A DNA stretch of 46,645 nt. Source: Geminicoccaceae bacterium (GTDB lineage Bacteria; Pseudomonadota; Alphaproteobacteria; Geminicoccales; Geminicoccaceae). Under the pieces are notes generated by a model. It made no database searches. It saw only the letters and a program-made list of their open reading frames with translations, and was not told the origin of the DNA. Both the position numbers and the translations under genes were made by a program. The stretch is from NCBI GenBank assembly GCA_025062095.1, contig JANXAZ010000021.1, positions 1 to 46,645 on the forward strand. Reading direction: 5' to 3'. This document shows, piece by piece, positions 22,680-30,761 of this stretch (positions are counted from its first letter, which is position 1; every line of letters begins with the position of its first letter).

Positions 22680-23786
22680 ATGAAGAAGTTCCTGGCGCTG
22701 CTCGCCGGAGCCGCCCTGGGCGCGATGCTCGTCTGGGACCAGCCGGCCCAGGCGCAGACCGTTCGGCTCAAGGGGCAGTCCTCGCACCCGGCTTCGGCCA
22801 ATCTCCATCTCTTGTTCAAGCTGTGGGCCGAGAACGTCGAGAAGATGACCGCCGGGCGCGTGAAGATCGAAGCGCTTCCGGCCGGTGCCATCGTACCCGC
22901 CTTCGAGGTGTTCGACGCCGCTTCCCGCGGCGTGATCGACGTGGGCATGGCCCCGTTCGGCTACATCCTCGGCAAGAGCCTCGCCGGAATTCCGCTCTCG
23001 CACGGGCCCCTCTTCGGCATGGACGCCTTCGACTACTGGGGCTGGTACTATGATGGGGGCGGGATGCAGCTTTTGGAGGAGTTCTATCGCGACGTCATCA
23101 AGCTGAACCTCGTGGGCTTCCCCGCTCCGACCGACTATCCTCAGGGGCTCGGCTGGTTCAAGCGTCCGATCAAGAGCCTCGACGAGCTCAAGGGGATCAA
23201 GTACCGCATCTACGGCATCGGTGCGGAGACTTTCGGTCGGCTGGGCGTCTCGGTGGTGACGCTGCCCGGCGGCGAGATCGTGCCGGCGATGGAGCGCGGC
23301 GTGATCGAGGGCGCGGAGTGGATCAACTGCGCGGAGGATCGGAAGCTCGGCCTGCACAACGTCGCCAAGCACTTCTACACGCCCGGCATGCACGAGCCTA
23401 TCACCGGTGGTCAGCTGTTCATCAACCGGAACGTTTGGAACAAGCTCACGCCCGACGTTCAAGAGATCATGAAGGTCGCGCTCAACGATGCGACCCTCAA
23501 GCGCAACTTCATCTTCGCGCGCGAAGCCGCCGAGGGCTGCGAGGCGCTCTTGAAGGAGGGCGTGACGATCCATCGCACGCCGGACGACATTCTCTTGCAG
23601 TTCCTGAACGAGTGGGAGAAGATCCAAGCCGAGTACGCGGCCAAGGATCCTTTCTACAAGAAGGTCATCGACAGCCAGCGGGCGTATGCCGAGAAAATCG
23701 TGCCCTTCCGGTTGAGCTTCTATCCGCCTTACGAGTTCGCCGGAAACTACTACTGGAAGCACAAGGTCTACGTGAAGAAGGATTGA
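22680..23786 (+). CDS. TRAP transporter solute-binding protein DctP, copy 2
   Basis: 368 aa, same length and no indel relative to copy 1, with about 50 substitutions by hand count. The signal peptide (KKFLALLAGAALGAML ... PAQAQ) differs most. The binding Arg is kept (IKYRIYG). Differences cluster in the segment after residue 205 (GGQLFINRNVWNKLTPDV against GGQLIVNKKVWERLAPDV, and the next helix), which could tune ligand choice or contact with DctQM. The start follows GGGAGG. It lies 76 bp upstream of dctQ. Confidence 0.93.
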   Translation: MKKFLALLAGAALGAMLVWDQPAQAQTVRLKGQSSHPASANLHLLFKLWAENVEKMTAGRVKIEALPAGAIVPAFEVFDAASRGVIDVGMAPFGYILGKSLAGIPLSHGPLFGMDAFDYWGWYYDGGGMQLLEEFYRDVIKLNLVGFPAPTDYPQGLGWFKRPIKSLDELKGIKYRIYGIGAETFGRLGVSVVTLPGGEIVPAMERGVIEGAEWINCAEDRKLGLHNVAKHFYTPGMHEPITGGQLFINRNVWNKLTPDVQEIMKVALNDATLKRNFIFAREAAEGCEALLKEGVTIHRTPDDILLQFLNEWEKIQAEYAAKDPFYKKVIDSQRAYAEKIVPFRLSFYPPYEFAGNYYWKHKVYVKKD

Positions 23787-24411: not shown

Positions 24412-25724
24412 GCCAAGAATTCCTCGGTCTGGTCCTGCTGGGCGCGCTGCTCACCGGGATCTTCGTCGGGTTCCCGATCGCTTTCACGCTCATCATCCTC
24501 TCGATCGTCTTCGGACTGATCGGGTTCGGCGATACCGTGTTCTACCTGATGGTCTTCCAGACCATCGGCCTCATGAAAGAAGAGACGCTGGCCGCGGTGC
24601 CGCTCTTCATCTTCATGGGCCACATCATGGAGCAGGCGGGGCTAATGGAGCGCCTGTTCCGCTCCTTCCAGCTCATCCTCGCGCCGGTCAAAGGTTCGCT
24701 GTACCTGGGCGTGCTGTTGACGGCCACGATCTTCGCCACCGCCACCGGGATCATCGGCGCCTCGGTCACGGTCATGGGCATGATGGCCGCGCCGGCGATG
24801 ATGAGGGCGGGCTACGATCCCAAGCTGAGCGCGGGCACGATCGCCGCCGGCGGCACGCTCGGCATCCTCATCCCGCCCTCGGTCATGCTCGTGGTCATGG
24901 GGCCGATCGTCGGCGTCTCGATCATCAAGCTCTTCGCCGCCGCGCTCGTCCCCGGTCTCATCCTCTCGGGTCTGTACATCGCTTACACCCTCGTCCGCTG
25001 TCAGCTGAATCCGTCGCTCGGGCCGCCGCTTCCGCCCGAGGAACGAGCGAGCTCGTGGATCGAGGTCGCCAAGGAATTCTTCACCGGCGTGGTGCCACTG
25101 GCGGTCGTGATCTTCGCGGCGTTGGGCTCGATCCTGGTCGGTCTCGCCACACCCACCGAGGCCGCGGCCATGGGCGCGTTCGGGGCGCTCGTGCTCATGA
25201 TCGCTTACGGCCGCTTCGACATCCGCAAGGTGCGCGACGCCTGCTTGAATACGCTCGAGACCGCGAGCCTCGTGCTCTTCCTCGCGATCGCCTCGAACAT
25301 CTACGGTGCCGTCTTCACCCGCCTGGGGACGAGCGGCATGCTCGCCGAGTGGCTTCTCGGTCTCGGGCTGGGGCCGACGGCGCTCCTGATCATGTTGATG
25401 GTGGTGATCTTCATCCTCGGCTGGCCGCTGGAGTGGCCGGCGATCATCTTCATCTTCCTGCCGATCTTCCTGCCCGTGGTCCAGGAAATGAAGATCGATC
25501 TCTTGTGGTTCTCGACGCTCGTCGCCGTCAACCTCCAGACCGCGTTCCTCTCCCCGCCCGTGGCCATGGCGGCCTATTACCTGAAGGCGGTCGCGCCCAA
25601 ATGGGAGCTCTCCTGGATCTATCGGGGAATGGTCGACTTCATGCTCCTGCAGGTCGTGGGGCTCGCGATCGTCTTCCTGTTCCCAGAGGTCGCTCTCTGG
25701 CTGCCCCGGGTGCTCTTCGGCTGA
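24408..25724 (+). CDS. TRAP transporter large permease DctM
   Basis: 438 aa with about 12 membrane helices, the transport subunit that exchanges the bound organic acid against a Na+ gradient. Signature segments: PLFIFMGHIMEQAGL, ATGIIGASVTVMGMMAAPAMMRAGYDPKLSAGTIAAGG, LGILIPPSVMLVVMG, and VGLATPTEAAAMGAFGAL. The GTG start at 24408 overlaps the dctQ stop by 4 bp (GTGA). It is followed by a strong terminator-like hairpin before the NO reductase cluster. Confidence 0.95.
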   Translation: MSQEFLGLVLLGALLTGIFVGFPIAFTLIILSIVFGLIGFGDTVFYLMVFQTIGLMKEETLAAVPLFIFMGHIMEQAGLMERLFRSFQLILAPVKGSLYLGVLLTATIFATATGIIGASVTVMGMMAAPAMMRAGYDPKLSAGTIAAGGTLGILIPPSVMLVVMGPIVGVSIIKLFAAALVPGLILSGLYIAYTLVRCQLNPSLGPPLPPEERASSWIEVAKEFFTGVVPLAVVIFAALGSILVGLATPTEAAAMGAFGALVLMIAYGRFDIRKVRDACLNTLETASLVLFLAIASNIYGAVFTRLGTSGMLAEWLLGLGLGPTALLIMLMVVIFILGWPLEWPAIIFIFLPIFLPVVQEMKIDLLWFSTLVAVNLQTAFLSPPVAMAAYYLKAVAPKWELSWIYRGMVDFMLLQVVGLAIVFLFPEVALWLPRVLFG

Positions 25725-25745
25725 GCTCCGCGCGAGGCACCGCAC

Positions 25746-25774
25746 GGAGCCGGGTGCGGCTTGCACCCGGCTCC
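25746..25774 (+). terminator. Terminator-like hairpin after dctM
   Basis: A perfect 12-bp inverted repeat, GGAGCCGGGTGC (25746-25757) and GCACCCGGCTCC (25763-25774), with loop GGCTT. Only TTCC follows, so it is not a textbook intrinsic terminator, but it is the likely end of the TRAP transcript. Its right arm overlaps the proposed -35 of the next operon. Confidence 0.6.
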
Positions 25775-25798
25775 TTCCGACGCTAAAAGATCGATCTT
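25761..25798 (+). promoter_or_regulatory. Candidate promoter of the norS operon with a 12-bp palindromic operator
   Basis: TTGCAC (25761-25766), a 17-bp spacer and TAAAAG (25784-25789, 4 of 6 matches to TATAAT). The perfect palindrome AAGATCGATCTT (25787-25798) starts inside the -10 and covers the predicted start, where a repressor would block RNA polymerase. Known NsrR sites are AT-rich with AAGAT...ATCTT-like ends, but the spacing here is shorter than the usual 23-bp site. NsrR binding is inferred from the nsrR gene at the end of the cluster. Confidence 0.4.
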
Positions 25799-25830
25799 GG
25801 AGCGATATTAAAGCCCCGGGGAGGCGAGCG

Positions 25831-26349
25831 ATGCAGGAGGTCGTACTCGCGGCCTCGCTCCTGGCCATCGCCCTGGTCGTGGTCGCTTTCGTCAAGGTGT
25901 TGCGCGAGCTCGGCCCGGGGGAGAGGCGCTGGAGCGGGCCCGAGCAGCTGTCGCGGCTGCGCGGCCGCATCCTCTGGCTTTCGATGATCGCCGGCGCCGC
26001 CTTGGCCCTCCTCACCCTTCTTCCCTGGCCGCACGCGGTCCCGACCGGCCCGGCGGTGGTCTCGGTCGCGGTGCGGGCGAGCATGTGGGCTTGGGAGCTC
26101 GATCCCACGCGCGTCCCGGTCGGGGTACCGGTGGTTTTCCACGCCACGAGCGGCGACGTGAATCACGGCTTCGGCGTGTTCGATCCGAGCGGGAAGCTCC
26201 TGTTCCAGACCCAGGCCATGCCCGGCTGGGTCAACAAGGTCGCGTGGACCTTCACCGAACCCGGCCGTTACCGCGTCCTCTGTCTCGAATACTGCGGGCT
26301 CGTCCACCACGGGATGATGGCCGAGCTCGAGGTCCTGCCGAGGAGCTGA
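25831..26349 (+). CDS. norS: CuA subunit II of a heme-copper NO reductase (NorS-like, cox subunit II family)
   Basis: 172 aa. Electron-entry subunit with a short N-terminal membrane helix (residues 3-22), a second one near 46-63, and a periplasmic cupredoxin domain. The complete binuclear copper site is visible: His112 (VNHGF), then C-x-E-x-C-G-x-x-H-x-x-M as Cys151, Glu153, Cys155, His159, Met162. It passes electrons from cytochrome c to the heme of subunit I. It is shorter than ordinary CoxB, like ba3-type and sNOR subunits. The ATG follows GGGGAGG. First gene of the norS-norY-senC-orf1 cluster. Alternative: a ba3-like oxidase subunit II. Confidence 0.75.
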   Translation: MQEVVLAASLLAIALVVVAFVKVLRELGPGERRWSGPEQLSRLRGRILWLSMIAGAALALLTLLPWPHAVPTGPAVVSVAVRASMWAWELDPTRVPVGVPVVFHATSGDVNHGFGVFDPSGKLLFQTQAMPGWVNKVAWTFTEPGRYRVLCLEYCGLVHHGMMAELEVLPRS

Positions 26350-26360
26350 GGGAGGCGGCG

Positions 26361-27821
26361 ATGACACCTCTGGCTGCCGCGGTCCGTGCTGCGCCGATCC
26401 TCGAGCCGACGCGCCTGGCGCTCGTCTCGGGCGGTCTGGTGTTCCTCCTCATGATGACTCTCGGCCTTCTCATGAAGGCCACCCAGGCGGGTTTTCTTCC
26501 CCTGGAGCCGCGCGCCTTCTACGAGGTCATGACGGCGCACGGGATCGGCATGGTCGGCACCGCCGGACTCACCGGCGTCGCCGTGCTGTGGCATTTCCTC
26601 GGCCGCTACGTCGAGCTCGACGAGCGCGTCTTCTGGGCGTTCCTCGCCTCGTTCCTTTCCGGCGTCGTGCTGATTTTGGGTGCCGTTTTCGTAGGCGGTT
26701 TCGCCGCGGCGTGGACCTTTCTCTATCCCTTGCCGGCGATCTCGGGCGGAGTGTGGGCGCCCGAAACGGCCGTCGTCTACCTGGCCGGTCTCGCGCTCGT
26801 GGGCACGGGCTTCTTGCTCCTCCACCTCGAATGCGCCCGCGCGCTCCGTGCCCGCTGGGGCGGTCTCGCGCACGCGCTCGGCTGGCCTCTGCTCTTCCGC
26901 GGTGCTCAGGATCCCCTGCCGCCGCCCGCCGTGGTCGCCGCTGCCGCGGTCACCGTTTTCAACCTTTTGGGGCTCGTCGTCGGCGCCGCCGTCATCGCCA
27001 TCAGCATCCTCGACATCGTGATTCCGGCCGCGAGCCTCGATCCTCTGCTCGCAAAGAACATGATCTATTTTTTCGGCCACGTGTTCATCAACGCTACGAT
27101 CTATATGGCGGTGATCGCGGTCTACGAGATCATCCCGGAATACACCGGTCGACCCTGGACGACGTCGCGGATCTTCGTCGCGGCGTGGAGCGTCTTGCTC
27201 CTCTTCGTCATGGCCGTCTATCCCCATCATCTCCTCCAGGACACGGTCATGCCCGCCTGGACATTGGCGGTCGGCCAGATCCTCTCGTACGGCACGGCGG
27301 TTCCGCTCGTCGCCGTCACCACGCTCGGGCTTTTGAGCCAGCTCCACCGTTCGGGCGCGCGGCTCGATCTTCCGGCGGCGCTCCTCGTCCTCGGGGTGGG
27401 CGGCTGGACCGCGGGTGTCATGCCGGCTTGGATCGACGGCATCGTCGCGGTCAACAAGGTCATGCACAACACGCTCTGGGTCCCGGGTCACTTCCACATG
27501 TACTTGATCCTGGGCCAGGTCGCTTTCGTCTGGGCCGTGCTCCTGCGCCTCGCCCGCGGCCGCGACGAGCGAGGCCTCTCCGCGAGCGACGGCATCGTGT
27601 TCTGGCTCTACCTTTTGGGCGGCGCCGGCCTCGCTCTGGGCTTCCTGATCGCCGGCGCGGCGAGCGTGCCCCGCCGTTGGGCGGTGCACGATCCGGCCTG
27701 GATCGTGCACGACGTCCCGGGCGTGCTCTTCGCGGTGATGGTGCTCGCGGGTGCGGCGGGCTTCTTCGCGAAGGCCGTCCCGGGTCTGCTCGCGCGTGGC
27801 GCGGCCCAGGCCCGGGGCTGA
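26361..27821 (+). CDS. norY: Heme-copper subunit I without the active-site tyrosine, NorY-like nitric oxide reductase
   Basis: 486 aa, about 12 to 13 membrane helices. All six metal-binding histidines can be assigned: His60 and His379 for the low-spin heme, His377 for the high-spin heme, and His240, His289, His290 for CuB. In O2 reductases helix VI reads GH-PEV-Y; here it is GHVFINATIYM, with Asn244 where the cross-linked Tyr belongs. Loss of that Tyr is a hallmark of NO reductases within the superfamily. Together with the gene order this supports sNOR, which reduces 2 NO to N2O. GGAGG precedes the ATG, 11 bp after norS. An unusual O2 reductase is the main alternative. Confidence 0.72.
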   Translation: MTPLAAAVRAAPILEPTRLALVSGGLVFLLMMTLGLLMKATQAGFLPLEPRAFYEVMTAHGIGMVGTAGLTGVAVLWHFLGRYVELDERVFWAFLASFLSGVVLILGAVFVGGFAAAWTFLYPLPAISGGVWAPETAVVYLAGLALVGTGFLLLHLECARALRARWGGLAHALGWPLLFRGAQDPLPPPAVVAAAAVTVFNLLGLVVGAAVIAISILDIVIPAASLDPLLAKNMIYFFGHVFINATIYMAVIAVYEIIPEYTGRPWTTSRIFVAAWSVLLLFVMAVYPHHLLQDTVMPAWTLAVGQILSYGTAVPLVAVTTLGLLSQLHRSGARLDLPAALLVLGVGGWTAGVMPAWIDGIVAVNKVMHNTLWVPGHFHMYLILGQVAFVWAVLLRLARGRDERGLSASDGIVFWLYLLGGAGLALGFLIAGAASVPRRWAVHDPAWIVHDVPGVLFAVMVLAGAAGFFAKAVPGLLARGAAQARG

Positions 27822-27825
27822 GACC

Positions 27826-28422
27826 GTGTGGCGCACGATCCTCGCCACTACGGCTGTGCTCGTCGCCGGTGTCGCGACGATCGTCATCGAGACCGACGGG
27901 CTCGCGGCTTTCACCACCGAAGGGGCGCGCCGGCTCGCGGTGACGCGGGCGCCCGTTCCCGTTCCTTCCGTCCGCTTGCGCGACGAGCGAGGGGAGGCGA
28001 TCGAGTTCCCGGTCGCCGGCCGGGCGATGCTCGTCGAGTTCGTCTACACGAGCTGCCCGACCCTGTGCGTGAGCCTCGCGCAAGCTTTCGCGCGAATCCG
28101 AGACGACCTCGAGCGCGCGGGCGCGGATCCCGTGCTTCGGCTCCTCTCGGTGAGCTTCGATCCCGCGCGCGACGATCCGCCGGCCCTTCGCGCATACGCC
28201 GAAGCGCACGGGGCCGATCGGCGCCGCTGGCGGGTCGCGGTGCCCGAGACCGAGGCCGATCTGCGGTCCCTTCTCGAGACCTTCGGCGTGATCGTGATCG
28301 CCGACGGGGAAGGGGGCTTCGTGCACAACGCCGCGCTCCACCTCGTCGACGCCGAAGGCCGGCTGGCGGCGATCTTCGATCCCGACGAGGGGGAGCGAGC
28401 CGCCCAGAGGCTCCTGCCGTGA
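27826..28422 (+). CDS. senC: SCO1/SenC-family copper chaperone
   Basis: 198 aa. Membrane-anchored thioredoxin-fold protein (helix at residues 4-22) that loads copper into the CuA site of subunit II. The copper ligands are visible: Cys77 and Cys81 in YTSCPTLC and His167 in FVHNAAL. It contains the family segments VEFVYTSCP and LLSVSFDPARDDP. The GTG start at 27826 is 4 bp after the norY stop. Position between norY and orf1 reproduces the norSY-senC-orf1 order of ammonia oxidisers. Confidence 0.88.
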   Translation: MWRTILATTAVLVAGVATIVIETDGLAAFTTEGARRLAVTRAPVPVPSVRLRDERGEAIEFPVAGRAMLVEFVYTSCPTLCVSLAQAFARIRDDLERAGADPVLRLLSVSFDPARDDPPALRAYAEAHGADRRRWRVAVPETEADLRSLLETFGVIVIADGEGGFVHNAALHLVDAEGRLAAIFDPDEGERAAQRLLP

Positions 28423-29066
28423 GAGGCGATCGAGCATCGCAGATCCTCGGCCTGACGTTCCTGCTCGCCGCTTTCGTCCTGCGCCGGCCGCTCGAGGCGC
28501 GCCTCGTCACCCACCTCCTCGTGCAATTTCCGCTCCTGCTCGCGGGCGGGGCGCTTCTCGCCGGTCCTCGGCCGCCCGAGCGCTCGCGTGCGTGGAACCG
28601 AGGCGGAGCCACGGGGCTCGCGCTCGCGCTCGTCGTCCTCGGCTTCTGGATGTTGCCGCGGGCGATCGACGCCGCTGTGGTCTCTTGGCGATACGAGCTC
28701 GCCAAGTTCGTGTCCGTGCCGGTCGCGGGAGCGGCGCTCGCCTGGAGCCTTCCGCTTCTGCCTTGGCTCGCGCGGCAGCTCGTGGCGACACAGGCGATCG
28801 CCATGGCCGCCGCCTCGGGCTGGCTCTACCTCGCGCTCCCGCAGCGGCTGTGCCTGCGATATCTCAGGAGCGATCAAGACGAGCTCGGCGCGGCGCTGCT
28901 GTTCCTTTCTGCCGCGGCCTTCGTGTTCTGGGTCGGCCGGCTGGTCTGCGGGGCGGAGACGAAGATCTCCGTTCGGACCTCGGGGGCGGCGCTCGAGCGG
29001 GATCGTTGCAGCGACGACGATCCCGGAGCTCGCGCGTCCGTGGGGCGTGCGACGCTTCGGCGGTGA
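28419..29066 (+). CDS. Small multi-helix membrane protein, Orf1 of the sNOR cluster
   Basis: 215 aa with about five hydrophobic segments (ILGLTFLLAAFVLRR, LLVQFPLLLAGGALLAG, GLALALVVLGFWMLPRA, VPVAGAALAWSLPLLPW, LLFLSAAAFVFWVGRLVCG) and a hydrophilic tail. The GTG overlaps the senC stop by 4 bp. I do not recognise a catalytic motif. By position it corresponds to orf1 of norSY-senC-orf1, which is proposed to help assembly, perhaps of heme or copper. Function is inference. Confidence 0.65.
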   Translation: MRGDRASQILGLTFLLAAFVLRRPLEARLVTHLLVQFPLLLAGGALLAGPRPPERSRAWNRGGATGLALALVVLGFWMLPRAIDAAVVSWRYELAKFVSVPVAGAALAWSLPLLPWLARQLVATQAIAMAAASGWLYLALPQRLCLRYLRSDQDELGAALLFLSAAAFVFWVGRLVCGAETKISVRTSGAALERDRCSDDDPGARASVGRATLRR

Positions 29067-29107
29067 ACGGCTCGGGCGCGTCTGCTAGCCTGCGGCCGCG
29101 ACGAGCG

Positions 29108-29123
29108 ATGCGGCGCGCCGCAT
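29108..29123 (+). promoter_or_regulatory. 16-bp perfect palindrome upstream of nsrR
   Basis: ATGCGGCGCGCCGCAT is fully self-complementary and lies 25 bp before the nsrR start. Its outer bases give GATGC...GCATT, close to the GATGY...RCATC arms of NsrR boxes but with one base less between them. It may be an autoregulatory site or a transcript hairpin. In DNA this GC-rich, chance cannot be excluded. Confidence 0.35.
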
Positions 29124-29147
29124 TCGACACCGGAGCCCCGCCCTGCG

Positions 29148-29579
29148 ATGCAGCTCGCCAAGCTCTCGGATTACGCCCTGCGGGCGCTCGTCCTCGCCGC
29201 GGTGCGCCATCCCGAACTCGTCACCGTGGCCGAGATCGCCCGCATCTATCGAATCCCCGAAGGACACGTGCGCAAGATCGCCCATCTGCTCGCCCGACAG
29301 GGCTTCCTCGCCTCGGTGCGCGGGCGCGCGGGCGGCTACCGGCTCGCGGCGCCCCCCGAGACGATCAGCCTCGGTCGGGTCGTACGAGCGACCGAGACCG
29401 ATTTCCGTCTCGTCGAATGTTTCGATCCCTCGAGCCGGCTGTGCCGGTTGGAGCCCGGATGCGCCTTGCGCGCGGTGCTGAACGAAGCGCTCGAGGCCTT
29501 CCTGGCCGTTCTCGACCGCACCACGCTCGCCGATGTCACCGCCGAGCGCCGCAGGCTGCGCGAACTCCTCGCGCTCTGA
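29148..29579 (+). CDS. nsrR: Rrf2-family NO-sensing repressor NsrR
   Basis: 143 aa. Winged-helix regulator whose [4Fe-4S] cluster is destroyed by NO, releasing DNA. It begins MQLAKLSDYALRAL, very close to known NsrR proteins. Asp8, the unusual fourth cluster ligand established in Streptomyces NsrR, is present. The three cluster cysteines are Cys91, Cys99 and Cys105 (LVECFDP, RLCRLEPGCAL). Helix-turn-helix region ARIYRIPEGHVRKI and wing VRGRAGGYRL are intact. It follows the NO reductase cluster by 81 bp in the same direction, so it likely controls it and perhaps itself. Confidence 0.88.
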   Translation: MQLAKLSDYALRALVLAAVRHPELVTVAEIARIYRIPEGHVRKIAHLLARQGFLASVRGRAGGYRLAAPPETISLGRVVRATETDFRLVECFDPSSRLCRLEPGCALRAVLNEALEAFLAVLDRTTLADVTAERRRLRELLAL

Positions 29580-29597
29580 AGGGCGAGGACGGGGAAT

Positions 29598-30761
29598 TCA
29601 CGGCCAACGATCGAGGAAATCGCGGATCCGCTCGAGCGCGATCTCGAGCCGTTCGGGGCGGATCGCGAAGCACAAGCGGATGTGGCTCTCGTTGCCCCGC
29701 CCGAAGGTGTAGCCCGCCGCCGTGCCCACTTTCTCTTCCGCCACCAGCCGCCGGCAGAAGGCGAGGCTGTCGGCGAGGCCCTCGATCCGCGGGAAGGCGT
29801 AGAAGGCGCCTTCGGGGCGCAGGAGCCGCACGCGCGGATGGGTGCCGAGGATGCGCATGACGAGGTCGCGATTGTGCCGGGTGCGCTCGCGGAACTCGGC
29901 CACGAAGGCCTCGCCCTGTTCGAGCGCGGCGATGCCGCCGTATTGCGCGAAGGAGGTGGCCCCGGTGTTGTTGACCTCCGAGAGCACGCGCATCGGCGTG
30001 GCGAGGCTCTTGGGATGGACCATCCACCCGAGCCGCCATCCGGTCATCGCCCAGGCTTTGGAAAAGCCGTTCAAAACGAACACCGGCTCGTCTTCTTCGG
30101 CGAGGGCGAGAAAGGAAGGGGCGGGATCGGGGCCCTCGAAGACGTTGCGGTGATAGACCTCGTCCGCCACGAGCGCGAGCCCGTGCTCGCGGCAGAGCTC
30201 GAGCAACGCCCGCTGCTCGTGCGGCTGCATGATCCAACCCGTGGGGTTGGAGGGACTGTTGACGTAGATCGCCTTGGTGCGCGGGCCGATCGCCGCTTCG
30301 ACCCGGCCGAGGTCGAGATGCCAGCGCTCGGGCCCCTCCTCGAGCCGGACGTCGATCGGCACGCCCCCCAGGACCTCGACCACGGTGCGGATGTTGGGCC
30401 AATAAGGCGAGATCAGGATCACCTCGTCGCCGGGTCGGAGAATACATTGGCAGGTCATCATGACGGTGAGCATCGTCGAGCCCGGAAGCGTGATCCGATC
30501 CGGGTGGACGGCGATGCCGTAAACCCTGTGGAGGTAGCGCTCGATCGCCTCGCGCACGGGCACGTGGCCGCGGGTGGGACCGTAGAAGGTCTTGCCGGCT
30601 TCGAGAGCGCGCACCGCCGCCTCGCGGACGAAGGCGGGGGTGACGATGTCGCTCTCCCCGAACCACAGGGGGATGACCTCCGGATCGTCGAGATGGTCGG
30701 CGGCCACCTTCATGATGCCGGAGGGCTCGAGGGCGAGGATCTCGGGACGCAGAGGTTTCAT
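29598..30761 (-). CDS. Class I/II pyridoxal-phosphate aminotransferase
   Basis: 387-aa fold type I PLP enzyme of the AspC-like group. Visible: YGPTRGHVPVREAI, the cofactor region LPGSTMLTVMMTC, SPYWPN, NSPSNPTGWIM with the conserved Asn, LVADEVYH, the PLP lysine in NGFSKAWAMTGWRLGW, and the substrate-carboxylate Arg near IRLCFAI. It transfers amino groups between an amino acid and a 2-oxoacid; the substrate is unclear. The ATG at 30761 follows GAGGG. It converges with nsrR across 18 bp. Confidence 0.9.
   Translation of the reverse strand: MKPLRPEILALEPSGIMKVAADHLDDPEVIPLWFGESDIVTPAFVREAAVRALEAGKTFYGPTRGHVPVREAIERYLHRVYGIAVHPDRITLPGSTMLTVMMTCQCILRPGDEVILISPYWPNIRTVVEVLGGVPIDVRLEEGPERWHLDLGRVEAAIGPRTKAIYVNSPSNPTGWIMQPHEQRALLELCREHGLALVADEVYHRNVFEGPDPAPSFLALAEEDEPVFVLNGFSKAWAMTGWRLGWMVHPKSLATPMRVLSEVNNTGATSFAQYGGIAALEQGEAFVAEFRERTRHNRDLVMRILGTHPRVRLLRPEGAFYAFPRIEGLADSLAFCRRLVAEEKVGTAAGYTFGRGNESHIRLCFAIRPERLEIALERIRDFLDRWP

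Follow-up and report, generated by a model that had tools for sequence, protein, structure and literature searches.

A predicted sNOR-type nitric oxide reductase operon with its own NsrR-like regulator in a Geminicoccaceae bacterium

Introduction

Does the five-gene cluster at 25831-29579 of a 46,645-nucleotide contig from a Geminicoccaceae bacterium (JANXAZ010000021.1, assembly GCA_025062095.1) encode an enzyme for nitric oxide (NO) rather than for O2, and does the regulator gene at its end control it? The contig, analyzed over its full length and called the window here, belongs, as C57, to a genome of 3.30 Mb in 143 contigs that is 99.6% complete. Gene calls and domain profiles place five genes on the same strand in the order norS, norY, sco (senC), orf1 and a gene for an Rrf2 regulator (Table 1), as an earlier note on this DNA had described them when it proposed an sNOR-type NO reductase under NsrR control. 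From the sequence evidence collected below, the five genes are probably an sNOR operon with its own NsrR-type repressor, the predicted enzyme being an NO reductase that would act as a relief valve, induced by NO, alongside a pathway of NirS and eNOR. The observation holds, and the enzyme family is already known; what is fresh is the predicted operator, the change of the operator with the regulator, and a genome that combines NirS, eNOR-type and sNOR genes.

Results and Discussion

The active site and the phylogeny of NorY

NorY retains all six metal-ligand histidines in the residue table (H60, H240, H289, H290, H377 and H379), which we take, from what is known of ba3 oxidase, to serve the low-spin heme, the high-spin heme and CuB. 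The six are retained in 30/30 sNOR-like rows of the alignment, and are shared, together with a CuA subunit II, with the ba3-type O2 reductases. The difference lies at the cross-linked catalytic Tyr237 of ba3 oxidase, with which Asn244 of NorY aligns. This position is Asn in 29 of the 30 sNOR-like rows (X in the remaining one), Tyr in 6/6 ba3-type rows and Gln in 5/5 eNOR-type rows, and the loss of the catalytic tyrosine makes full O2 reduction unlikely. The same division is given in Table A4 of PMC8756737 (excerpt), where the active-site residue is N for sNOR, Q for eNOR and Y for O2 reductases, with N also for CuA-NOR (bNOR). In place of the Tyr237 and Tyr244 that form the signature of the ba3 O2 reductase, NorY has Asn and Val. 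Of the proton-channel positions of ba3 oxidase, compared by alignment only, three are replaced (Y244V, S309L and T302S) and two are kept (Y248 and T312); sNOR is without a proton channel in the excerpted table of PMC8756737.

A maximum-likelihood tree was calculated from 45 rows with 200 bootstrap trees, a set that included neither bNOR nor the NorY of N. europaea. The sNOR-like rows, NorY among them, make up one side of a branch with support of 100/99 that is present in 100% of the bootstrap trees, and the ba3-type (Tyr) and Gln-type rows form separate groups. NorY resembles eNOR in being a B-family heme-copper subunit and differs from it in its clade as well as in its active-site residue. 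Subunit I is thus not placed firmly inside the O2-reducing B-family oxidases, the outcome that, by the earlier note, would have spoken against its proposal. A-type oxidases are represented by one row, whose long branch joins next to the sNOR clade and leaves the deep root unsure. NorY shares its clade with a protein of Ruegeria (Silicibacter) pomeroyi (L012) that is 52% identical and is the nearest to NorY that can be tied to a published sNOR carrier; we infer it to be the "Silicibacter" sNOR of the excerpted PMC8756737 table. The AlphaFold model of NorY (mean pLDDT 83.4) matches heme-copper oxidase subunit I, with a best Foldseek E of 1.9e-11 and A-type oxidases in the top rows; the predicted fold confirms the superfamily and holds no information on the substrate. 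The sNOR identity suggested by the earlier note is borne out by the active-site Asn, by the clade with the Ruegeria/Silicibacter protein and by the operon order, which is the norS-norY-senC-orf1 order published for the sNOR operon of ammonia oxidizers (PMC4940428).

Ruegeria and Thermomicrobium records label the sNOR subunit I as subunit I of a cbb3-type cytochrome c oxidase, so that possible N2O formation by sNOR is easily overlooked. The norY on a Parasedimentitalea plasmid (L013, 6854-8325) is broken across two open frames at a place with no gene annotated, and may be a pseudogene or reflect an error in sequencing. Genome G003, a genus member without a NorY match, encodes a divergent subunit I of heme-copper-like type (L116, C233:2626-3969) that aligns Tyr with one CuB histidine and with the high-spin heme histidine and is possibly a non-catalytic relative.

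Conservation of the module

Neighbors of norY were counted at the best 80 of 545 named homologous loci, 54 of which have full flanks. Near norY we found norS at 79 of the 80 loci, sco at 77, orf1 at 75, an Rrf2 gene at 45 and a formate/nitrite transporter gene at 44; among the 54 loci with full flanks, the last two occur at 34 and 32, respectively. This recurrence of norS, sco, orf1 and the Rrf2 gene indicates that the arrangement is not due to chance. The CuA residues C-x-E-x-C-x3-H-x2-M are conserved in 79/79 NorS homologs read, and the CPxxC motif of Sco in 52/77. The transporter gene is missing from the window operon and stands between orf1 and the Rrf2 gene in the relative L021; as a frequent neighbor of sNOR (44/80 loci, with L012, L013 and L021 among them), it hints at nitrite traffic.

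The distribution of the sNOR gene is patchy. It was found in 7/60 relatives and in 2/142 genomes sampled evenly from the class (both of this genus), the present genome being counted in both sets. A kinship search placed the host in the same genus as Geminicoccaceae bacterium KatS3mg117, in line with the alphaproteobacterium that the earlier note had surmised, and the genus relative G005 has the same sNOR locus.

Comparison with the published clusters shows what is shared and what differs. The window operon is like norSY-senC-orf1 of the ammonia oxidizers in gene order (PMC4940428) and in the Asn signature (PMC8756737, excerpt), but it ends in nsrR, and its host has NirS and an eNOR-type gene. 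In N. europaea, nsrR (NE0926) is near nirK (NE0924) and, by number, far from norSY-senC-orf1 (NE0683-86; PMC4940428). In Nitrosococcus oceani, the locus numbers in the excerpt of PMC3772326 imply the same order including NsrR (Noc2967 for NsrR, Noc2969-2971 for SenC, NorY and NorS), so an NsrR gene next to sNOR can already be seen in published data; that host is a nitrifier, and the comparison was made by locus table rather than by sequence. The Ruegeria pomeroyi cluster (megaplasmid NC_006569, 195.7-199.4 kb) encodes proteins identical to those of the window at 40% (NorS), 52% (NorY), 51% (Sco), 38% (orf1) and 43% (Rrf2). Its norS, too, is preceded by a 23-bp dyad, a strong one, with the half-site ATTAGGTAT against AAGATCGAT in the window; the cluster differs in that its Rrf2 gene is divergent and upstream and a formate/nitrite transporter gene follows orf1.

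The NsrR-like regulator

All four residues that the earlier note had seen in the regulator are there: Asp8 and Cys91/99/105, which in the alignment match Asp8 and three cysteines of E. coli NsrR; IscR has Arg in place of the Asp. Its closest solved relative is the S. coelicolor NsrR (5n07, 61 bits). In the 49 regulators encoded beside sNOR, Asp8 is found in 46 and the three cysteines in 49. The NCBIfam NsrR model has a curated cut-off of 182, which the regulator, at 105.6 bits, does not reach (E. coli NsrR scores 292.8 and the Ruegeria regulator 100.8); for this reason we call it NsrR-like and not NsrR. In the excerpt of PMC1274295 (2005), NsrR is described as not seen in alphaproteobacteria except Rhodobacter capsulatus E1F1. 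On a Thermus thermophilus plasmid (L168, 5932-8095), an Rrf2 regulator gene follows a Gln-type eNOR-like gene, so that B-family NO reductases may have come under Rrf2 control on more than one occasion.

The predicted operator

When the regions upstream of norS (74 after dereplication) were searched for a palindromic motif of width 23, the search settled on AATAGGTATTTAAAATACCTATT; its log-likelihood gain was 377, and ten shuffled sets gave 59-70. This family dyad has the 7-N5-7 layout of the published NsrR motif gATGyAT-(N5)-ATrCATc (PMC1274295, excerpt). Among dereplicated named full-flank loci, the dyad is present at 21/27 with a nearby Rrf2 gene and at 3/18 without one (Fisher p 7e-5); its threshold was reached by shuffled regions in 16/1480 trials. 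With the motif trained on the 71 regions that remain without this genus, the window site at 25787-25809 ranks first of 128 positions, and the corresponding sites of the genus loci L021 and L022 likewise rank first, all three with low scores. Together with Asp8 and the three cysteines, this predicted dyad of NsrR length and register, which lies within the interval 25746-25830 where the earlier note had expected NsrR binding, favors the NsrR-type control that it had proposed. The gap between orf1 and nsrR holds no convincing dyad, the best having 7/11 pairs.

A genus operator pattern was built from the window, L021 and L022 sites, with at most two mismatches allowed. This 3.3-Mb genome and G002 each have a single match, which precedes norS, and G005 has two, one of them preceding norS. 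G001 and G003 (without a NorY match) and G004 (with a contig that begins inside norY) have none, and neither did a reversed control pattern give any. Since the pattern derives from the sites themselves, the result speaks for uniqueness and not for independent discovery. The second G005 match (C1:1155256-1155278, two mismatches) is outside the sNOR operon.

The half-site changes with the recognition helix of the regulator. In a comparison of the 49 regulators beside sNOR, near-copies kept, with a canonical dyad defined as one of 10 bits or more, the canonical dyad was present at 40/42 loci with other recognition helices, and absent with the GHVRK helix (window, L021, L022 and L017; 0/4) and with the SSLMK helix (three Gallionella-type loci; 0/3). 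The GHVRK loci window, L021 and L022 have the half-site AAsATCGAT in common, and L017 shows no clear dyad. At the SSLMK loci the 23-bp dyad is TATATTCCG-N5-(C/T)GGAATCnn, with 6-7 symmetric pairs among the outer 9. That helix class and dyad type go together suggests that the neighboring regulator reads the dyad, but the exceptional groups are few in number and related to one another. We found no paper in the open-licence literature on an sNOR-linked NsrR operator or on a helix-linked change of half-site. A defined predicted operator offers a direct test of whether sNOR answers NO or O2.

Other denitrification genes in the genome

The earlier note had described a stand-alone detoxification unit. 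The part of this that concerns the contig stands: in the families searched, no nir or nos match was found on the window contig apart from the cupredoxin part of NorS. The idea of a stand-alone unit does not hold for the genome, which has both NirS and a Gln-type eNOR-like gene. NirS is encoded at C106:3327-4508 (PF02239, 491.8 bits; phmmer, 648 bits to the PDB cd1 nitrite reductase; CxxCH heme motif). Two further PF02239 proteins, on C106 and C86, are presumably NirF/NirN-like. The eNOR candidate (L003, C86:10082-11386) is a Gln-type (GHSSQQ) heme-copper subunit I in the Gln-type group of the tree, adjoins a cupredoxin-type match at C86:11519-11731 and is 74% identical to one on a Defluviimonas plasmid. 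G005 is a closed genome; there a stretch of about 16 kb (1,310,762-1,326,582) holds both NirS and the eNOR-type gene, and sNOR is about 1.05 Mb away. Besides these genes, the present genome encodes two oxidase-type subunits I, of which one groups with annotated CcoN in the tree and the other looks A-type by motif.

A strong NirS match (about 490 bits) is found in 5/6 genus genomes, including all four with sNOR. Across the 60 relatives, a PF02239 match at E<=1e-60 accompanies sNOR in 6/7 genomes, compared to 13/53 genomes without sNOR (p 0.003), two of the 13 having only weaker NirF/NirN-like scores. In the six genus genomes NirK, NapA and NosZ gave no match above cut-off; the searches did not take in NarG, Hmp or NorVW. 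We read the organism as a probable partial denitrifier that has a pair of B-family NO reductases, sNOR being the second, separately placed one. Its genome is well suited to the question of why a denitrifier should retain both. In Bacillota, sNOR is rarely found without another NO reductase gene (2/433 genomes; PMC11388526, excerpt).

Proposed mechanism and its alternatives

As we picture it, an NsrR-type protein with an Fe-S cluster of presumed type on Asp8 and the three cysteines would occupy the dyad and repress norS-norY-sco-orf1-nsrR. NO would damage the cluster, the repressor would leave and the operon would be read; as the last gene of the operon, nsrR would limit its own output. Sco, and perhaps also orf1, would supply copper. 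Electrons would enter at the CuA of NorS and travel by way of heme to the site of heme and CuB in NorY, which would convert 2 NO to N2O. The NO would most likely come from the organism's own NirS. With NirS and eNOR-type genes in the genome, the best reading of sNOR is a relief valve that NO would induce, the eNOR-type enzyme being the likely main respiratory NO reductase. Extended beyond this genus the proposal is tentative, and we place it somewhat short of an even chance: a locally encoded NsrR-type switch may govern sNOR in many proteobacteria, its 23-bp dyad length fixed and its half-site changing with the recognition helix (AATAsGTAT for NHxxK-like, AAsATCGAT for GHVRK, TATATTCCG for SSLMK), and in Geminicoccaceae denitrifiers it may run the second NO reductase as a relief valve beside NirS-eNOR elsewhere in the genome.

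Several observations weigh against the relief-valve reading. No Rrf2 gene is in reach at 35/80 loci, or at 20/54 with full flanks, and 2/6 genus genomes (G001 and G003) have no NorY match. Within the family, the link between sNOR and PF02239 is weak (6/7 vs 12/24, p 0.19). The genus sites have low family-motif scores of -9.7 (window), 0.1 (L021) and -7.1 (L022) bits; the halves of the genus dyad agree with the published NsrR half-site in 5/7 and 3/7 bases, length and register being the same, and the three sites are modestly symmetric (p 0.018). Whether sNOR reduces NO is itself disputed in the literature, and NO reduction is the predicted function here: we have seen no NO-reductase activity in print for any alphaproteobacterial sNOR, and the excerpt of PMC6967387 argues from low-O2 induction that the N. 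europaea sNOR is an O2 reductase, cNOR being the main NO reductase, while citing indirect evidence of NO reduction in Nitrococcus mobilis. That argument, joined to B-family affinity, would make the window enzyme a high-affinity O2 reductase that merely tolerates NO, a degenerate B-family oxidase, as Tyr-less alphaproteobacterial relatives are called in PMC6431628 (excerpt). CuA and Sco, as in oxidases, would fit such an enzyme. We regard this as unlikely, given the Asn for the catalytic Tyr in all readable sNOR-like rows, the clade apart from ba3-type oxidases, the NsrR-type dyad and regulator, and the two oxidase-type subunits I that the genome already has.

The regulator invites a different doubt, namely that it is RirA- or IscR-like and that the operon answers iron or Fe-S status and not NO. 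The NCBIfam RirA model scores it above the NsrR model (118.6 vs 105.6 bits, both below cut-offs; 120.0 vs 106.5 for L021), and another Rrf2 protein of this genome, its gene beside sufB, likewise has Asp8 and the three cysteines, so the residues alone do not settle its identity. Nevertheless, NsrR is the best solved relative, Asp8 is as in E. coli NsrR where IscR has Arg (in an alignment without a RirA protein), the Ruegeria regulator scores higher for NsrR than for RirA (84.8), and the family dyad shares the published NsrR layout, the RirA operator form being outside the comparison. We therefore hold an iron or Fe-S switch to be rather improbable. Least probable is a bNOR (CuA-NOR, as in Bacillus), which likewise has Asn (PMC8756737, excerpt) but with a proton channel: the Thr at ba3 position 312 and the Tyr at 248 are kept as it would call for, yet ba3 Tyr244 and Ser309 are replaced, the operon order is the published norSY-senC-orf1, and NorY is in a clade with the Ruegeria/Silicibacter protein, in a tree without a bNOR sequence.

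The orf1 protein

Across 38 sequences of the orf1 family, 12 residues are invariant (H32, W77, M78, P80, D84, K96, C145 and others). DUF1404 is matched weakly by 13/39 homologs (best 5e-5), and the window protein matched no Pfam family. The orf1 model (mean pLDDT 89.9) has no solved relative by Foldseek (best E 3.1) and no clear one by VIA-align (best Z 6.3 over 58 residues). Compared by hhalign with an annotated CtaG-type cytochrome oxidase assembly protein (L014), the orf1 profile scored 24.6, but with a probability of 5%; among the controls, 10 further membrane proteins scored at most 18.6, and 11 shuffled or reversed ones at most 15.5. With a second annotated assembly protein (L170, truncated by the end of its stretch) the score fell to 11.2, and neither L014 nor L170 had a significant match in a profile search. 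The orf1 product is possibly a CtaG-like copper-centre assembly factor, which we offer as a lead only.

Locus layout and neighboring features

Table 1. Features of the predicted sNOR operon and its upstream region (window positions)
Feature	Position	Strand	Description
G+C-rich hairpin	25746..25774	+	12-bp stem; fold of -28.4 kcal/mol
Possible promoter	25761..25788	+	TTGCAC-N16-CTAAAA; overlaps hairpin and dyad; similar bases in L022 and L021; tentative
Predicted NsrR operator	25787..25809	.	AAGATCGATCTTGGAGCGATATT; 23-bp dyad, 21 bases before the norS start; 8/11 symmetric pairs
norS	25831-26349	+	CuA-type subunit II; PF00116, 28.5 bits; CuA motif C151-L-E153-Y-C155-G-L-V-H159-H-G-M162
norY	26361-27821	+	Heme-copper subunit I; PF00115, 142.7 bits
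sco/senC	27826-28422	+	Copper chaperone; GTG start; PF02630, 55.1 bits; CPTLC motif
orf1	28419-29066	+	Membrane protein; GTG start; 4-base overlap with sco; no Pfam match
nsrR-like Rrf2 regulator gene	29148-29579	+	PF02082, 122.8 bits; D8 and C91/C99/C105

The regulator gene follows orf1 after 81 bases, and the gene downstream of the operon, on the opposite strand, encodes an aminotransferase. The gene upstream of norS encodes the large subunit of a TRAP transporter (PF06808, 246 bits); the hairpin of Table 1 is probably the terminator of this transporter operon. L022 has a similar hairpin, with CTTTTT after it, and there, as in the window (9/11 pairs), the hairpin is more symmetric than the dyad. 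A consensus terminator scan did not report the hairpin on the + strand, and around 25650-25900 and 28950-29700 a sigma-70 scan gave no promoter and the terminator scan nothing on the + strand. The TRAP membrane subunit genes are preceded by two near-alike tandem genes for solute-binding proteins (window 21.5-22.5 kb and 22680-23786), which look like a duplication.

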